Assembly: GCA_002086835.1 (NCBI GenBank)
Contig: MVIG01000022.1
Location: 1-64,000 of the forward strand
From: Mycolicibacterium porcinum
GTDB lineage: Bacteria > Actinomycetota > Actinomycetes > Mycobacteriales > Mycobacteriaceae
Length of the DNA: 64,000 nucleotides
Reading direction: 5' to 3'
Shown: positions 9,801-58,135 of the stretch, in pieces
Position numbering within the stretch: position 1 is the first letter of the stretch
Layout: the number at the start of each line of letters is the position of its first letter
Notes under the pieces: generated by a model
What the model was told of the DNA's origin: nothing
Database searches by the model: none
Seen by the model: the letters and a program-made list of their open reading frames with translations, nothing else
Made by a program: the position numbers and the translations under genes

Positions 9801-12491
9801 TTAGCGGTTCCGACGGAACCAGCGCCGCACCCGGCCGCCCTGCTTCGTCGGTTCGGGTTGCTCGGTGACCACCGGTGATTCGGCCTTGGTCTCGTCAACA
9901 GGCTTCATGTCGCCGTCGGTGTCACCGGCGGCTTCGGCATCGTCGGCGTCGGATTCATCCGCTGCATCATCGGTTTCCGCTTCGTCAGCATCGGGCGCGT
10001 CCACCCCTTCTGCGGCTTCTTCGTCGACCTCGGTCTCGGGCTCAGCGTCGTCGTCTACCAGTGCTTCAGCCTCATCGGCGCTGTCTTCGACGTCGGTGGG
10101 CTCGACCTCGGTATCGATCGAGTCGTCGTCGCCTTCGTCCTCTGACCCGGCCTCAACCTCATCGACCGGCTGTTCCGCCTCTTCGGATTTGGCGTCCTCA
10201 GTCTCGGGCTCGTCGGTCGATTCTTCGGCCGCGGCTGTGTCCGCTGCCTCGTCGGAGTCGTCGGTCGTCTCGTCTTCGGCGTCCGCGGCTGCTTCGTCGA
10301 CCTCGGTATCGATCGAGTCGTCGTCGCCTTCGTCCTCTGACCCGGCCTCAACCTCATCGACCGGCTGTTCCGCCTCTTCGGATTTGGCGTCCTCAGTCTC
10401 GGGCTCGTCGGTCGATTCTTCGGCCGCGGCTGTGTCCGCTGCCTCGTCGGAGTCGTCGGTCGTCTCGTCTTCGGCGTCCGCGGCTGCTTCGTCGACCTCG
10501 GTCTCAGCCTCAGCCTCTCTGCCGTCTTCTACGGACTCTGCGGGCTCCTCATCGGCCACGTCCGTGGCTTCAGCAGCCCGGGTCGACTCATCGTCGCCTT
10601 CGGTTTCAGCCTCGGCCTGCGCGCCGGTCTCGGAGGGCTCCGGTTCAGACTCTTCGTCCTCGTCCTCTCCGGCAACCGCTGCGACAGATTCGGCGTCCTC
10701 GACTTCGGTTTCGGCCGCGGTGTCGTCGGCCAGTTCCTTGGCGGCGACGTCATCCGCTGCCTCATCGGAGACGGCGGCTGCTTCGTCTACCTCAGCCTCA
10801 AGCTCGGCCTCGGTGCCGTCTTCGACGGACTCCGCTGCGGGCTCCTCATCGGCCACGTCCGTAGCTTCAGCAGCCTCGGTCGACTCATCGTCGCCTTCGG
10901 TTTCAGCCTCGGCCTCCGCAACGGCCTCCTCGGTGACTTCGGCCTCGGTCTCGGAAGGCTCCGGTTCAGACTCTTCGTCGCCTTCGTCGTCGGCTACCGC
11001 CGCGACAGATTCAGCGTCCTCGCCCTCGGTTTCGTCCTCGTCGACCGACTCTTCGGTGACGTCGGACTCGGTTTCCTCGGCCGCGGGCTCGTCCGCCGGT
11101 TCTTCGGCGGCGGGTGTGTCCGCTGCCTCATCGGAGTCATCGGCTGCTTCATCGACCTCAGCCTCAAGGTCGCCCTCGGTGCCGTCTTCGACCGACTCTG
11201 CTGCGGGTTCCTCGTCGGCCACGTCCGTAGCTTCGGCAGCATCGGTCGACTCATCGTCGCCTTCGGTTTCAGCCTCGTCCTCGTCGACCAACTCTTCCGT
11301 GAGGTCGGACTCGGCCTCTACTGCCTCGGCATCGGGTTCCTCGTCGGCTACATCCTCAGCTTCAGCCTCGGCGTCCTCGACCTCGGTTTCAGCCTCGTCC
11401 TCAGGCCCGTCCTCGTCTTCGGGCTCCTTGGCGATCGCCTTCAGTTCGATCGCCGCGGCCGCCTCGGCGCCGTCGTCCTCACTGGCGCCGACCTCGTCCG
11501 GATGCATGTGGTCGGCATCCTCGTCATCGTCCTGCCCGGCCGCTGCCGCGGCCGCAACAACACCGGTGGTCGCCGCCGCGGCGACGAGCTCCTTGCCGAG
11601 CTCGTCGGCCGTCGACTCGTCCTCGTCGGTCTTGCCCGCCAAGGTCGCCGGGTCTTCCCGTCCCTTGGTCGCCAGCATGATGTAGACGACGGCGCCGATG
11701 AATACGAACGTCGAGGTGAAGGTGTTGACGCGGATACCGGCGAATTCGGTCGCCGGGTCGCTGCGCATCAATTCGACCAGGAAGCGGCCCGCGCAATAGC
11801 CGGCCACGTAAAGCGCGAACAGCCGGCCGTGGCCGAGCTTGAACCTCCGGTCGGCCCAGATCAGTAGCGCGAAAACCAGTAGGTTCCACAGCAATTCATA
11901 GAGGAAGGTGGGATGGACCACCCGCTCGACCTCACCCGTCGAGATGCCGTTGAGTTGGTCCGGCTGTCCGAGGGAGTTGACGCGCTTGTAGATCTCCAGG
12001 CCCCACGGCAGCGTGGTGTCGCCGCCGTAGAGCTCTTGGTTGAAGTAGTTTCCGAGCCGGCCGATGGCCTGGGCCAGAATGATTCCGGGTGCGATCGCGT
12101 CGCCGAAAGCCGGCAGCGGTATTCCCCGCGAGCGGCAGCCGATCCAGGCTCCGACGCCGCCGAGTGCGACGGCGCCCCAGATGCCGAGGCCGCCCTGCCA
12201 GACCTGAAAGGCTGCACCGAGCCCCTTGCCGCCCGGCCCGAAATAGGTGGGCCAGTCCGTCATGACGTGGTAGAGCCGGCCGCCCACGAGGCCGAAAGGC
12301 ACGGCCCACAAAGCGATGTCATAGATGACGCCGGCCTGTCCGCCTCGCGCCTGCCAGCGCCGGTCGCCGATGACCAGTGCCGCGATGATGCCCACGATGA
12401 TGCAGAGCGCATACGCGCGGATCGGCACCGGCCCCAGATGCCAGACGCCCTGTGACGGGCTGGGCAAATACGCGAGCACGGTAGTGGTCAA
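9801..12491 (-). CDS. lgt: Prolipoprotein diacylglyceryl transferase with giant acidic tail
   Basis: Transfers diacylglycerol from phosphatidylglycerol to the lipobox cysteine of prolipoproteins, in the plasma membrane. Residues 1 to about 280 form the multi-helix core with the family signature GRLGNYFNQELYGG (144-157) and GRFLVELMRSDPATEF. Residues from about 282 to 896 are almost wholly Asp, Glu, Ala, Ser, Thr and Val, then end in a basic tip (GGRVRRWFRRNR). The usual bacterial enzyme is near 280 residues, and M. tuberculosis Lgt also has a tail, but a much shorter one. The start appears to be TTG overlapping the trpA stop by 4 bases, with AGAGGA upstream. A GTG four codons later is possible. 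Confidence 0.93.
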   Translation of the reverse strand: MTTTVLAYLPSPSQGVWHLGPVPIRAYALCIIVGIIAALVIGDRRWQARGGQAGVIYDIALWAVPFGLVGGRLYHVMTDWPTYFGPGGKGLGAAFQVWQGGLGIWGAVALGGVGAWIGCRSRGIPLPAFGDAIAPGIILAQAIGRLGNYFNQELYGGDTTLPWGLEIYKRVNSLGQPDQLNGISTGEVERVVHPTFLYELLWNLLVFALLIWADRRFKLGHGRLFALYVAGYCAGRFLVELMRSDPATEFAGIRVNTFTSTFVFIGAVVYIMLATKGREDPATLAGKTDEDESTADELGKELVAAAATTGVVAAAAAAGQDDDEDADHMHPDEVGASEDDGAEAAAAIELKAIAKEPEDEDGPEDEAETEVEDAEAEAEDVADEEPDAEAVEAESDLTEELVDEDEAETEGDDESTDAAEATDVADEEPAAESVEDGTEGDLEAEVDEAADDSDEAADTPAAEEPADEPAAEETESDVTEESVDEDETEGEDAESVAAVADDEGDEESEPEPSETEAEVTEEAVAEAEAETEGDDESTEAAEATDVADEEPAAESVEDGTEAELEAEVDEAAAVSDEAADDVAAKELADDTAAETEVEDAESVAAVAGEDEDEESEPEPSETGAQAEAETEGDDESTRAAEATDVADEEPAESVEDGREAEAETEVDEAAADAEDETTDDSDEAADTAAAEESTDEPETEDAKSEEAEQPVDEVEAGSEDEGDDDSIDTEVDEAAADAEDETTDDSDEAADTAAAEESTDEPETEDAKSEEAEQPVDEVEAGSEDEGDDDSIDTEVEPTDVEDSADEAEALVDDDAEPETEVDEEAAEGVDAPDADEAETDDAADESDADDAEAAGDTDGDMKPVDETKAESPVVTEQPEPTKQGGRVRRWFRRNR
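10104..10493 (-). repeat. Perfect 195-bp tandem duplication inside lgt tail
   Basis: Bases 10104-10298 and 10299-10493 are identical by direct comparison, giving two identical 65-residue acidic blocks in frame. Looser copies of another block are spread over 10580-11300. For example, CGACTCATCGTCGCCTTCGG recurs at 10584, 10881 and 11247. The repeat preserves the frame. Complete identity suggests a recent slippage or recombination event. Confidence 0.95.
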
Positions 12492-53764: not shown

Positions 53765-54048
53765 ACCTTCCGCACGGACGTGGTGTCCGCAGCGCCGTCA
53801 CCGGCGCTGCGCTCGCGCTGCTGGCCGCGTCATGGCTGGCCATCGGTCACGCGTGGTCCCTCGTCCTCATGGCCGCCGGGGTCATCGTGCTCGACTTCGC
53901 GGGGCAGGCCGTTCACGTGGCGACAGCCACGACTGCGGTGTACTCGGTCGGCGGCTGGACCGCCTCCAGCATCCTGGGCGCCACGTTCGCGGCGTGCGGG
54001 CTCATCGTCTGGACAATCAGCCGAGCGGTGCACCACACGCCACGATGA
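53765..54048 (+). pseudogene. Remnant of an MFS transporter
   Basis: After treZ, one frame encodes RSAVTGAALALLAASWLAIGHAWSLVLMAAGVIVLDFAGQAVHVA, which fits a middle helix pair of sugar or drug-efflux MFS proteins. It is joined at once to TATTAVYSVGGWTASSILGATFAACGLIVW, which resembles a C-terminal helix further along such proteins. The intervening segment with its conserved loop seems deleted, and the whole N-terminal part is missing. There is no good start codon. It overlaps the convergent DUF2182 gene. Best read as a decayed gene, though a small membrane protein cannot be excluded. Confidence 0.6.
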
Positions 54049-54844
54049 CGGCCACCACTGCCAGCACGGCGGCGAAAAGCCGAAGATGATCAACGCCTCT
54101 CGTCACCAGCTTCTCCCCCGCGACGACGCCGAACAGCACCACCATCAGCCACAGCGCATGCGGGGCGAGCGCCATCGGCACCATCATCGGACCGCACGCG
54201 CCGCTGCACTGCAGTCCGTTCCTCAGGCCCTCCTCGACACAGGCCCGGTCAGCGCGCCACCCGTCGGCGGGCAGTGCCCGGACCCGGTGACAGGCCCGCA
54301 GAAAGAACCGCTTCCTTCGGGTCAGTTCCCAGATCGCCGCCATCACCAGGAGCCCCGAAACCGCCAGGGCACCTCCGGCTTCCGGCCCGATCATCCAGGC
54401 AGCGGTGAGCGCGAGGCCACCGAACGCCGACCACACCGCGAGATAACCGGCGGCGAACAACGCCTGGCCGCGCTGTCGCCGATTCCATTTGCCGTTCAAC
54501 GCGATCGACCGGACCGCAGGCAGTGTGGTCGGCAGCATCATCGCCGACGCCATCAGCAGCCACATCGCCGGCGACGCCGCGAATTCCGGTGCGCCGGAAG
54601 GTGTCGCTGGACAGCCGACTGCCAGCGCGCCCCCACCCGACGCTCCGTGGTGGTGGGCTACGGCGTGCGGCAACGTCGAACAATGCCCCGCCCCGCCGTG
54701 CGACGGCATCGACAGATGCAGAAGCACCAACCCGAGCCAGGCTGCCGCCGAGGCGGCCAGCAGGCTCAGCTCGGGATGCGCCCACCACAGCCTCCGCCAG
54801 GCCGATGGCCGTGCCGCTCGCCTCGCGACCGCGGTCGGCGTCAT
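54017..54844 (-). CDS. DUF2182 membrane protein
   Basis: A 275-residue protein of about six helices. The features of DUF2182 are visible: MWLLMASAMMLPTTLPAV, then RACHRVRALPADGWRADRACVEEGLRNGLQCSGACGPMMVPMALAP, which is rich in Cys and Met near the membrane. A loop has HCSTLPHAVAHHHGASG. These could bind copper or another metal; the family is annotated only as predicted metal-binding. ATG at 54844 overlaps the tyrosinase-like stop as ATGA, indicating an operon. Confidence 0.85.
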   Translation of the reverse strand: MTPTAVARRAARPSAWRRLWWAHPELSLLAASAAAWLGLVLLHLSMPSHGGAGHCSTLPHAVAHHHGASGGGALAVGCPATPSGAPEFAASPAMWLLMASAMMLPTTLPAVRSIALNGKWNRRQRGQALFAAGYLAVWSAFGGLALTAAWMIGPEAGGALAVSGLLVMAAIWELTRRKRFFLRACHRVRALPADGWRADRACVEEGLRNGLQCSGACGPMMVPMALAPHALWLMVVLFGVVAGEKLVTRGVDHLRLFAAVLAVVAVIVACGAPLG

Positions 54845-56334
54845 TGCAGGAAGACGCTCACTCGCCCGATGCGGGCATTCCCCGATTGCTGCGGTGCCGA
54901 CGCCTGGGCGCCCGGCAGTTGGATCGGATGGGCGGCCGGCTCCACGTACTGCGGCACGAAGGTGACGCTGACCTGATCGCTCCACCGGCCCTCGGCACTG
55001 AAACGCCGGTACAGCCCCGTGATATCGAAGGCGAGCCGCATCCCGCCGTGCTCGTTGTCGGGATTGCTGGTTTCCTCGATCCCGAAAAACGCTGCGACGC
55101 CGACGAAATGGTCGTCATCGAGGGAAGGCTCACCGCCACCCACCGTGAGATACACCTTGTAGGTCACCCCAACCGGGGCCGGCGACGTCACGTCCTCGAT
55201 CCGCAGGAACGCGCGGGACGCCGGTGTCGCCTCCTCCGCCAGAGGCCCGATCGGCGGCGCGATGCCGAACGTGACGTTGGTGGTCTCACCGGCGAGTGCG
55301 ACCGCATTGTCGGATGCCCCGACGAGTTCCGGCGGGTTCTCGGGTGCGGGAGCGGTCGGCATGAGAGCCTCCAGTGCAACAGGGGCGGTGATGTCCTCAT
55401 AGCGGTACCCGAGTTGGGTCGTGGTGTCGAGCACCTCTTGTACCGTCTCGCTCAGCGTCGCCCGGTTCTCGTCGTGGAAATGGAACGTCACGCCGCTCAG
55501 CCAGGCTGCCTCCGTGGTGTCGGCACGGTCGGGCATCGTCCGCCAGATCTCCCAGACGCGGTCGATGTTGGCATGGTGCAGCCAGAAGATCGGATCCAGC
55601 GCGGCGGTGTTGAACGACCCCATGAGACCACCGACGCCCACGTGGACTGCGCCATGCGGGGTGCCCTCAAGCGGTCCCATCGCTGAGCCCGGGTCCTCGC
55701 CACCGTGACTGAATCCGGTCCGCCCACCGGCGAACCCGCCGATCCCGGCGAAGTCGATCGGCGCCAGGGCACTCGCCAGGTCGACATCGGAGACCGGCAA
55801 CGACGAACCGTCGTTGAGGTTCCGACCCGGCACCCACAGCGGATTGGGCGTCACACCGTCCGGCAGGGTGGTGTCGAGGAAGGCCTGCGGCAGGCGTCTG
55901 CGGGCCGGATCATCGCTGCTGTAGTTCCAATAGGGCAAAGCCCATGTCGCCTTCGTCTGTTCGTCGACGTCGTCCAGTTCCTGGACGGCCGCCCAGACGA
56001 TCCGTTCGAACCACTGCAGATACATCCGGTGCCACGGCAGGAAGTACCAGCAGAAGTGCTGGCATTGATTGCGGAAGTTGTCGGGATTCACTGTGGTGCC
56101 GTGGATGTCGGACTGGTATTGCCACCCGATCGGGTCCAGCTGATCCGCATCGGTCCGGTCGATCAGCACCTGCACCGCCCTGGCATAGGCGTAGATGGTC
56201 GGGTGCCAGTGATCGATCTGGTCGAGCGTCCAGATGTTGTACCGGACCCGGGTGGCCACCTCGGCGACCGTGCCCTCGAGCCGAGGTGCGGCGGCACCGA
56301 GAGTGGCACCGGAATTGATGAGGTGTTCGGTCAT
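54841..56334 (-). CDS. Tyrosinase-family type-3 copper protein
   Basis: A 497-residue protein. The CuA histidines are probably His78 (SDIHGT), His93 and His102 (CQHFCWYFLPWHRMY, with the usual eight residues between). The CuB set is His227/His231 (TPHGAVHVG) and His253 or 254 (IFWLHHANIDRVW). Residues from about 330 form a beta-rich C-terminal domain, possibly a lid or substrate domain. Such enzymes oxidise phenols or catechols. No signal peptide is seen. ATG at 56334 was chosen; ATG at 56352 is possible. Confidence 0.88.
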   Translation of the reverse strand: MTEHLINSGATLGAAAPRLEGTVAEVATRVRYNIWTLDQIDHWHPTIYAYARAVQVLIDRTDADQLDPIGWQYQSDIHGTTVNPDNFRNQCQHFCWYFLPWHRMYLQWFERIVWAAVQELDDVDEQTKATWALPYWNYSSDDPARRRLPQAFLDTTLPDGVTPNPLWVPGRNLNDGSSLPVSDVDLASALAPIDFAGIGGFAGGRTGFSHGGEDPGSAMGPLEGTPHGAVHVGVGGLMGSFNTAALDPIFWLHHANIDRVWEIWRTMPDRADTTEAAWLSGVTFHFHDENRATLSETVQEVLDTTTQLGYRYEDITAPVALEALMPTAPAPENPPELVGASDNAVALAGETTNVTFGIAPPIGPLAEEATPASRAFLRIEDVTSPAPVGVTYKVYLTVGGGEPSLDDDHFVGVAAFFGIEETSNPDNEHGGMRLAFDITGLYRRFSAEGRWSDQVSVTFVPQYVEPAAHPIQLPGAQASAPQQSGNARIGRVSVFLQ

Positions 56335-56372
56335 GGTTGGGACGTTAGGCATCCGCAGGCCAGGAGGCGCGC

Positions 56373-56433
56373 GTAGATCACTACCTGTATTCGGCACCGA
56401 GGTGGTCGCCGCAATTTTCGAGTAGCCGACTAC
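56373..56433. promoter_or_regulatory. Two GTAG-N4-CTAC palindromes between tyrosinase and M4 genes
   Basis: GTAGATCACTAC (56373-56384) and GTAGCCGACTAC (56422-56433) share eight fixed bases as inverted 4-base arms and start 49 bases apart. They lie in the 136-base divergent promoter region. They may bind one regulator acting on both sides. No regulator gene is adjacent. Confidence 0.45.
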
Positions 56434-56470
56434 GCACGAATTCGCCGCGCCCGGCCCGCATGATCAGGCC

Positions 56471-58135
56471 ATGAACGACAACGGGTTAGAAAGCTTCGCG
56501 CTACACAGTGCGGACAAGTACCAGGGTCCGGCGGTGCAGGCCATCAATGACGAAGCGGTGCGGCCCGACGCCGCCCCCGCCGTCGACGTGGCGACGCTCG
56601 ATCCGGAATCCGCCGCGCGCCGTTATCTGAATCAGATGATCGCCAGCCCCGAGGTGCCGACCATCACCGACAGCAGCGCGGGCCCGGGAACCGAGTACCG
56701 GGCCCTGGGCACCGAGTCCATACCGCTGACGGACTCCACTGTCGTCAAGTTCGCCCAGTACCGTCAGCGCATCCCGATCTACGGCTCACTGGTCACGATC
56801 GAGCTCGACGACGACAACAACATGCTGGCTGTGAATTCGGCGATCGGCAATCCCGACGGCGTCGACGCCGTCGCGACCGTATCGCCTGCCCAGGCTCAGG
56901 ACGTGATCGTCAAGGACGCGGGCAAGGACGCGCTGCCGTTGCCGGAGCCGCCCCGGCTGTACTTCTACTTCGACAGCAGCGCCGACCCCGGCGTGTGGCG
57001 GCTGGTCTACATCGCCAAGAACGTGCAGCGGCACCGCGAGCGCACCTCGGACGGCCACCCGGAGACACTGCCGGAACTCTTCGACTACGTCGTCGACGCC
57101 CATTCCGGCGATCTGGTGGCCAAACTTCCCCGGACCCAGACCATTTCGTGGACCTTGGAAGAACTGGACTCCACCGACGCGCTCGGACAGACCCGGCGGA
57201 TCCGGGCCGAGCGCGACGAGAACGACAACAAGCGCCTGGTAGACCCGACCCGGCGCATCGAGACCTACGATTTCGGCTTCCGCAGGATCGAGGCGCAGTT
57301 CCGTTCCCTGCCGGGTACCGCGCCGATCACCAACCCGCCCGCGCCATGGAGCCCGGCGGCCATCAGCGCGCACGCCAACGCCCAGGAGGTGGCCGACTAC
57401 CTGCTGAACACGCTGCAACGCAACGGGCTCGACAACCAGGGCGGTCCGTTCATCTCGTCCATCAACTGCACGTCGATTCAGGATCCGACGCCCCAGGAAT
57501 GGCGCAACGCCGCCTGGATCGGCACGCAGATGGTCTATGGCCAGCGCAGCGTGAACGGTGAGTTGCGATCGTATGCGGTGGCCGTGGACGTCGTCGCCCA
57601 CGAGATGACGCACGGGCTGACCGACAACACCGCCCGCCTCGAGTACAAGGGCGAATCCGGTGCCCTCAACGAGTCCTACTCGGACATCATGGGGACGATC
57701 ATCGCCAACTCCCAGAAACCCGACATCGACAGCTGGAACTGGGAGATGGGCGAGGAACTCGACGGCACCGGGGTGCCCCTACGCGATCTGAGCGATCCGG
57801 CCCGGCGGGGCCAGCCCGCCCACATGCGCGACTACGTGAACACCACCCGAGACAACGGCGGCGTACACACCAACAGCGGCATCCACAACAAGGCCGCGTA
57901 CAACGTGATCAGCGCGAAGAACAGTCAAGGCCACCTGTTCACCCCGCAGGACGTCGCGACACTGTTCTATCTCGCTCTGACCCTTCACCTTTCGCGAACA
58001 TCAGGATTCAGCGACAGTCGGCGTGCCGTCGAACTCGTGGCCAAGTCCCTGTTCCGCAAGGATCCGCCGGACGTTCTCGACGAGAAGGTCAGCGCCATCA
58101 GTGCTGCGTTCGAGGACGCCGGGATCCAAGCCTGA
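56471..58135 (+). CDS. M4 (thermolysin-family) metallopeptidase
   Basis: A 554-residue zinc peptidase. Residues 50-230 or so look like the FTP/PepSY propeptide region (VVKFAQYRQRIPIYGSLVTIELDDDNNMLAV). The catalytic part has HEMTH at 377-381 (zinc ligands and base), the third zinc ligand Glu401 in NESYSDIMG, and His466 in DNGGVHTNSGIHNKAAY. All catalytic residues are intact. Oddly, there is no N-terminal signal peptide, although M4 enzymes are normally secreted. Divergent from the tyrosinase-like gene and 3 bases from the ilvA stop. Confidence 0.92.
   Translation: MNDNGLESFALHSADKYQGPAVQAINDEAVRPDAAPAVDVATLDPESAARRYLNQMIASPEVPTITDSSAGPGTEYRALGTESIPLTDSTVVKFAQYRQRIPIYGSLVTIELDDDNNMLAVNSAIGNPDGVDAVATVSPAQAQDVIVKDAGKDALPLPEPPRLYFYFDSSADPGVWRLVYIAKNVQRHRERTSDGHPETLPELFDYVVDAHSGDLVAKLPRTQTISWTLEELDSTDALGQTRRIRAERDENDNKRLVDPTRRIETYDFGFRRIEAQFRSLPGTAPITNPPAPWSPAAISAHANAQEVADYLLNTLQRNGLDNQGGPFISSINCTSIQDPTPQEWRNAAWIGTQMVYGQRSVNGELRSYAVAVDVVAHEMTHGLTDNTARLEYKGESGALNESYSDIMGTIIANSQKPDIDSWNWEMGEELDGTGVPLRDLSDPARRGQPAHMRDYVNTTRDNGGVHTNSGIHNKAAYNVISAKNSQGHLFTPQDVATLFYLALTLHLSRTSGFSDSRRAVELVAKSLFRKDPPDVLDEKVSAISAAFEDAGIQA

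Follow-up and report, generated by a model that had tools for sequence, protein, structure and literature searches.

The 64-kb window analysed here (the whole stretch of 64,000 nucleotides from Mycolicibacterium porcinum, contig MVIG01000022.1) carries three genes side by side between treZ and ilvA, encoding a tyrosinase, a DUF2182 protein and a thermolysin-family (M4) peptidase. The corresponding interval of M. tuberculosis presumably holds a toxin–antitoxin pair. A check of open reading frames and Pfam domains found all three genes complete, at the positions given by the original prediction, which had been made from the sequence alone and had proposed a copper-oxidase locus. The ATG of the DUF2182 gene overlaps the tyrosinase stop codon as ATGA on the minus strand, an overlap found identically in M. 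septicum, and the M4 gene begins 136 bases from the tyrosinase start in the divergent direction. Gene coordinates bear out both arrangements as predicted, and the thermolysin-family gene, with M4 and M4_C domains, is intact. The features of the locus are listed below.

54017..54844, minus strand: candidate PpoB2 (DUF2182) membrane copper chaperone, 275 residues (PF09948, 3.8e-28)
54841..56334, minus strand: tyrosinase of the PpoB1/HcTyr1 type, 497 residues from its ATG (Pfam Tyrosinase, 1.4e-33; PDB 8b74, 1.3e-54; N-terminal hydropathy)
54919..55332, minus strand: C-terminal lid-like domain DUF7868 of the tyrosinase, residues 335-472, with placeholder candidate F417 (Pfam, 9.1e-20; alignment with HcTyr1)
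56272..56334, minus strand: remnant of LysM repeats at the N-terminus, about residues 1-21 of the tyrosinase (judged by eye against the LysM repeats of relatives)
56373..56384, no strand: palindrome GTAGATCACTAC, 38 nt upstream of the tyrosinase start codon (pattern scan; conserved in relatives)
56422..56433, no strand: palindrome GTAGCCGACTAC, 37 nt upstream of the M4 start codon (pattern scan; conserved in relatives)
56471..58135, plus strand: M4 (thermolysin-family) peptidase, 554 residues (Pfam M4 and M4_C; best PDB match aureolysin; hydropathy)

Pairwise dN/dS between the window and five relatives is 0.07-0.12 for the tyrosinase, 0.05-0.11 for the M4 peptidase and 0.25-0.36 for the DUF2182 protein; the reference genes give 0.07-0.10 (treZ, five relatives) and 0.02-0.03 (ilvA, four comparisons). 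Because these ratios are low, and those of the tyrosinase and M4 genes resemble neighbouring treZ, the three genes look to be maintained under purifying selection.

The tyrosinase also matches PPO1_DWL (1.6e-7), and its copper ligands were assigned by eye on an alignment as H78, C91-x-H93, H102, H227, H231 and H254. In a hydropathy scan whose sole positive control was a lipoprotein, it shows neither a signal peptide nor a hydrophobic N-terminus. Among solved structures, the best match to the single sequence is 8b74, the HcTyr1 tyrosinase of Hahella sp. CCB MM4, with residues 81-465 as the best stretch; a search with a ten-sequence profile places 8b74 third (1.4e-66), behind two multi-domain hemocyanins, and aligns profile positions 19-460. 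The HcTyr1 report (PMC11609597) describes, on AlphaFold2 models, a lid that covers the active site and uses Phe397 as its placeholder, and also a slow self-processing of this lid during storage that yields a form about 10-fold more active; it also lists the Marinomonas mediterranea tyrosinase at 44.5% against HcTyr1. Counted along the alignment, Phe397 falls opposite F417 of the window tyrosinase, which is invariant in ten aligned tyrosinases (the window and nine relatives). Homology to HcTyr1, in the form of the DUF7868 match, the alignment through the HcTyr1 C-terminal domain and F417, supports the view that the C-terminal domain is a putative latency lid with F417 as its placeholder. This role had been anticipated for a beta-rich domain from about residue 330, in agreement with the DUF7868 boundaries.

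On a Burkholderia stagnalis plasmid, a stand-alone DUF7868 gene (L069:9178-9693, plus strand; 1.4e-26) follows a tyrosinase and a DUF2182 gene, perhaps a lid supplied as a separate protein. At the other end of the enzyme, orthologous tyrosinases vary in their LysM repeats, with two in M. septicum and four in M. houstonense and Nocardia, and by eye a remnant of them persists in the window and in several relatives. The repeats point to an affinity for cell-wall or chitin-like polymers that was lost in the window's lineage. A MelC-type system was considered and rejected, the NCBIfam MelC2 model scoring 50.8 bits against a cut-off of 450.

Pfam now names the DUF2182 family 'PpoB2, copper chaperone'. 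Residues H65, H66, M98, M102, M103, C185, C213, M221 and H229 are invariant across ten aligned sequences (the window and nine relatives), and five candidate membrane segments appear in the hydropathy scan. In Marinomonas mediterranea the genes for the tyrosinase PpoB1 and for PpoB2 share an operon, and PpoB2 takes part in transferring copper to the tyrosinase (PMC2855505). On the strength of the family name and this operon, the pair in the window is assigned to the already known PpoB1-PpoB2 kind, and the proposal that DUF2182 could supply copper gains support. The pairing extends to plasmids: with the Rhizobium phaseoli proteins as queries, DUF2182 was matched in 16 records, the tyrosinase in 17 and both in 15 (ten of them near-identical copies), and the two matches are neighbours by coordinates in 14 of these 15. 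The fifteenth, R. leguminosarum 9B, has its listed DUF2182 match about 13 kb off, and tblastn finds an unannotated one adjoining the tyrosinase.

The peptidase shows the hallmarks of family M4, namely an HExxH motif, downstream Glu and His, and the M4 (2.8e-26) and M4_C (2.2e-39) domains. HEMTH stands at residues 377-381, GALNESYSD begins at 397 and GGVHTNSGI at 463; inspection by eye agrees with the earlier statement that the copper and zinc motifs are intact. A match to the FTP propeptide is weak, at 17.9 bits in the window against a cut-off of 21, with 29 bits against 21 in the related protein of genome G143. Signal peptides are usual in family M4, without defining it. The hydropathy scan found no hydrophobic N-terminus in the M4 proteins of the window, G143, G1169 and R. 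phaseoli (the last taken from its annotated start).

Within the genus, a tyrosinase match at 1e-10 occurs in 6 of 198 genomes and this M4 at E ≤ 1e-60 in 14 of 396, of which 12 show at least 88% identity. The M4 gene lies opposite tyrosinase-ppoB2 and next to ilvA in all 12, with treZ on the other side in 11; in the remaining one the contig ends first. Several of the 12 are the same genomes as the named loci L003-L009 (M. septicum, M. setense, M. peregrinum, M. houstonense and Mycobacterium sp. URHD0025), and G436 was counted through the same contig as L004. The 12 genomes are one clade, which we take to be the fortuitum group, and count as one event. More widely the close M4 is rare, with 3 of 298 genomes of the order at 1e-45 and 2 of 394 of the class at 1e-40, own genome included.

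Outside this clade we found five further full-length M4 lineages (about 44% identity or more), making six in total, and in three of the six (the window clade, G143 and Rhizobium plasmids) a type-3 copper oxidase gene stands beside the M4 gene. In G143, a genome of the same genus, the M4 gene (60%) lies 33 bp after a gene of 712 residues with Hemocyanin_M (9.8e-25) and Hemocyanin_C (3.2e-20) domains, whose product is, by its domain content, an arthropod-type phenoloxidase or hemocyanin relative. This gene (L050:10470-12608, minus strand) stands in an apparent operon with the M4 gene, a 406-residue gene and a 954-residue gene with an amidohydrolase domain; at phylum scale, Hemocyanin_M gave one match, below the family cut-off, in 346 genomes. 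On the Rhizobium plasmids (44%) the order is M4, a 130-residue gene, tyrosinase and DUF2182. Among the 20 plasmid M4 matches listed from 75 records, 12 are full-length (43.6-48.4% identity), and 11 of these, all from Rhizobium, have a tyrosinase about 0.5 kb from the M4 gene followed by DUF2182; ten of the 11 tyrosinases are at least 99% alike and one is broken.

The co-occurrence of the three families, which the original prediction had named as a check, is therefore seen in one mycobacterial group (12 genomes) and in Rhizobium (11 plasmids, including the one with the broken tyrosinase), so that rare co-occurrence, named there as a refutation, does not plainly apply; the remaining tyrosinase-DUF2182 pairs seen, however, are all without this M4. 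Since tyrosinase is present in just 28 of 163 genomes of the class, chance neighbours in three of six M4 lineages are unlikely. A rough estimate is about 1e-6 without the discovery lineage, assuming some 0.3 tyrosinase genes per 6000 and three genes on each side, with a tyrosinase rate taken from outside Rhizobiales and lineages counted as found. Genetic linkage of oxidase and protease goes beyond chance. An M4 tree places the Rhizobium and mycobacterial forms in different groups (support 94/89 and 94/95, below the tool's star), so that the association probably arose, or was retained, on more than one occasion.

The shared promoter repeats of the original prediction take the form of GTAG-N4-CTAC palindromes, and the window has exactly two, both between the tyrosinase and M4 genes. 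Shuffles give an expected number of 0.03, and a value nearer 0.3 would be fair from the genome-wide rate of a similar pattern, found at 31 places in 7 Mb and not above a backwards control. The single pattern is no commoner across the genome than its control (13 forward and 25 reverse matches versus 18 and 24), so lone sites elsewhere in the genome are no evidence. Paired sites at a spacing of 25-55 bases are unique in the window's own genome.

A scan of 29 sequences (546,497 bases) placed all 30 matches in promoters of tyrosinase, M4 or phenoloxidase genes (20 loci, 5,449 bases); the remaining 541 kb contained no match. These promoter windows were set from gene ends, some of them by hand after the sites had been seen; with the repeat loci L081, L083 and L086 removed, 26 sites remain and still none lies outside promoters. 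The tyrosinase genes of M. aquaticum, G087, Nocardia and G033 are each preceded by one copy, and a single GTAGTGCACTAC precedes the phenoloxidase-M4 operon of G143. One of the two sites is mismatched in L007, L009 and L085, and the stretches scanned in G1169, Micropruina, Rhizobium, Azospirillum, G1022 and G403 contain no operator. The strongest new observation is that two kinds of copper oxidase share one operator and are both tied to one M4 subfamily. BlaI as the regulator is a guess, for which the papers listed in a literature search gave nothing usable.

Palindromes of the form GTAGTGCACTAC also lie elsewhere in the window's own genome, upstream of a CotH-like gene (L125:7157) and of a gene for a small repeat protein (L123:7610); these may be chance, because the genome-wide frequency is at control level. 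The intergenic gap of 136 bases in the window compares with 247-302 in L003-L009, and at 56434-56470 the window and L080 lack about 74 aligned leader bases that precede the M4 start in those loci.

The window tyrosinase, used as query, matched 61 plasmid records at 1e-12. From these, and from a hemocyanin-type query that supplied R. indicum, we took 16 annotated loci, roughly one for each lineage. L138 (unannotated) and L066 and L067 (R. phaseoli lineage) were dropped, and the count leaves out additional records of Caballeronia, Bradyrhizobium and melA-type Rhizobium as well as unannotated ones of Sinorhizobium. An annotated peptidase gene lies within 1.5 kb of the tyrosinase in 8 of the 16 loci, of family M4 in R. 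phaseoli and S. meliloti, of family S8 in R. indicum, R. leguminosarum 9B, Bradyrhizobium and S. americanum, and trypsin-like in Paracoccus, R. rhizogenes and S. americanum. Peptidases make up 9/60 genes within 1.5 kb versus 4/139 farther away (p = 0.003), or 10/81 versus 3/118 with a 2.5-kb cut (p = 0.007); the counts near and far are lower bounds, because the plasmid gene tables are incomplete. The gap between tyrosinase and peptidase is 4 bp in Paracoccus and 27 bp in Bradyrhizobium, and in Sinorhizobium americanum the tyrosinase (from residue 546) is fused behind an S8 domain (residues 179-461) that was not counted as a neighbour. The S. meliloti neighbour is a different M4, with 31.7% identity over 300 residues and a C-terminal cytochrome domain. 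Several pairs are matched in their predicted compartment: a hydrophobic N-terminus is absent from the oxidase and M4 of G143 and the tyrosinase and M4 of R. phaseoli, and present in the R. rhizogenes tyrosinase, its trypsin-like neighbour and the S. americanum fusion. Such matched partners fit an activation model.

Taken together, these observations can be read as a latent type-3 copper phenoloxidase encoded with linked means, PpoB2 and the M4 peptidase, to mature it, a reading that we put forward tentatively and judge a little short of evenly balanced. PpoB2, a membrane protein in which His, Met and Cys residues are conserved, would hand copper to the tyrosinase, as in the Marinomonas pair, and the C-terminal domain would cover the copper site with F417 as placeholder, as in HcTyr1. 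The M4 peptidase would be made from the same divergent control region, in which one palindromic operator is present twice, a copy for either gene, and might then cut the linker around residues 318-335 to release active oxidase. Because neither the tyrosinase nor the M4 peptidase has a visible signal peptide, activation would probably occur on cell lysis or damage, as in wounded plant tissue, and the product may be quinones or a melanin-like polymer. Copper delivery and the lid, as originally proposed, are both supported by homology, and the evidence for trimming of the lid by M4 is indirect; the repeated linkage to two kinds of oxidase, the shared operators and the peptidase excess near plasmid tyrosinases make M4 a plausible lid-trimmer. 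A wider generalization, which we consider possible and advance with more reserve, is that bacteria possess phenoloxidase-activation modules, in which latent tyrosinases with a lid and arthropod-type prophenoloxidases each have a dedicated M4, S8 or trypsin protease, sometimes fused, and that in mycobacteria one regulator acting on GTAG-N4-CTAC switches both on.

Several observations weigh against an activating role for the peptidase. M. aquaticum (L010) and G087 carry tyrosinase-ppoB2 at the same treZ-ilvA site with no M4, and G033, Nocardia and two Micropruina records likewise have the pair with no M4 in the DNA compared; such orthologous loci led us to reject M4 as a required partner. The linker carries no M4-specific sign, being similar in M. 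aquaticum, and a signal-less, active general protease inside the cell is awkward. Of the M4 lineages, G1169 (66%) has its M4 opposite an S8 subtilisin, G1022 (48%) beside a gene that by eye is DUF1963-like, and Azospirillum (48%) equally shows, by annotation, no type-3 copper gene in the stretch read; none was seen in the stretches of G1169 and G1022 either. The Rhizobium block can also come apart, since on the R. leguminosarum A1 plasmid (L066:9187-10784, plus strand) M4 and DUF2182 are open and the tyrosinase is broken by a frame change, and the R. ruizarguesonis plasmid L067 keeps tyrosinase and DUF2182 with M4 reduced to a remnant of about 26 residues. When the two lead loci are dropped, the peptidase excess weakens to 7/51 versus 4/123 (p = 0.016). 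Partners look mismatched in Bradyrhizobium and S. meliloti, where a hydrophobic N-terminus is seen in the peptidase but not in the tyrosinase. Finally, among the tyrosinases tested, 4 of 7 that have a peptidase close by and 2 of 8 that have none carry a lid domain (DUF7868 or plant-type KFDV, above cut-off), R. indicum being left out and three more of the eight showing a weak KFDV match. In this sample, then, a recognised lid domain is no predictor of a neighbouring peptidase, and this speaks against a strict rule.

Two other explanations draw on the same evidence. Oxidase and peptidase may be independent, signal-less exoenzymes under one regulator, released together on lysis or stress, neither acting on the other and clustered as they are needed together, which we regard as a serious if rather doubtful possibility. 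The occurrence of tyrosinase-ppoB2 without M4 in several genera is expected on this account, and M4 relatives without a copper oxidase adjoin an S8 peptidase, a family-16-like hydrolase, the DUF1963-like protein (by eye) or, in the more distant G403 (about 34-36%), an array of peptidases (by eye); two further relatives at about 36% (L056 and L057) were compared by tblastn alone. The operator pattern also lies upstream of other genes, such as the CotH-like one, at a genome-wide count not above control. However, the fused S8-tyrosinase, the 4-bp and 27-bp gaps and the lid homology fit a substrate relation better.

It is unlikely, in our judgement, that the tyrosinase activates itself, its lid being released by self-cleavage or by chance proteases and the M4 being a passenger fixed by descent in one clade. 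HcTyr1 offers a precedent, since it self-cleaves and sheds its lid without a known protease according to the available part of its description (PMC11609597), and this too counts against a dedicated activator. The mycobacterial M4 association, moreover, is one event inherited as a block, and M4 is absent from other orthologues. Yet the same M4 subfamily recurs with a different copper oxidase in G143 and on Rhizobium plasmids, and the operator is common to both mycobacterial forms.

Some neighbouring features are recorded for completeness. At 53780-54048 (plus strand) the window holds a remnant of a major facilitator superfamily (MFS) transporter gene that resembles only the C-terminal end of its M. 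septicum counterpart; M. septicum (L003) has, between ppoB2 and treZ, an intact MFS gene of 396 residues (10218-11408, minus strand) and an HxlR regulator (11468-11929, plus strand). The G033 tyrosinase (L052:8822-10597, minus strand) has N-terminal repeats that by eye are hemopexin-like, with a masked stretch; an adjoining open reading frame of 1923 residues and a large regulator nearby look, again by eye, RHS/YD-repeat-like and LuxR-type, respectively.

The tyrosinase-M4 link is new as far as the open-access literature searched shows. There we found no paper joining a tyrosinase to the M4 family in Mycobacterium, linking bacterial tyrosinase latency to an operon-encoded metalloprotease, treating bacterial tyrosinase with hemocyanin or prophenoloxidase in Mycobacterium, or treating DUF2182, alone or with tyrosinase; a search for tyrosinase with LysM in mycobacteria gave nothing related, by title. 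A review describes as elusive how non-insect polyphenol oxidases are activated under physiological conditions, and the gene pairs therefore make an open question testable. They place a candidate activator beside a candidate substrate with a clear predicted cut position, several of them in named organisms amenable to culture and mutagenesis, and they include an arthropod-type phenoloxidase gene from another member of the genus, apparently under the operator found in the window.

Compared with known systems, the locus shares with Streptomyces MelC1-MelC2 the combination of a bacterial tyrosinase and a copper-loading partner, although the caddie MelC1 is not known to be related to DUF2182. The Marinomonas PpoB1-PpoB2 operon likewise joins a tyrosinase to a PpoB2-family gene, the two overlapping as ATGA in the window, but the available part of its description (PMC2855505) mentions no peptidase, whereas the window has a LysM remnant and an opposing M4 gene. 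HcTyr1 (8b74) has the same tyrosinase domain and a homologous lid with an aligned placeholder Phe; on the side of difference, HcTyr1 loses the lid on storage without a known protease, and no linked protease is mentioned in the part of the report available (PMC11609597). For the transglutaminase of Streptomyces mobaraensis, PMC9047793 describes a zymogen that a metalloprotease of the producing bacterium itself converts to the mature enzyme. That case resembles the arrangement proposed here and differs in that the enzyme is a transglutaminase and is exported. We take its activating metalloprotease to be a member of M4. The arthropod prophenoloxidase cascade also combines a type-3 copper zymogen with an activating protease, and G143 pairs a hemocyanin/prophenoloxidase-type protein with this M4. 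In arthropods the activators are serine proteases and the portion taken off is N-terminal, whereas the candidates here are M4, S8 or trypsin-like peptidases and, for the tyrosinase, the part to be removed would be the C-terminal lid.

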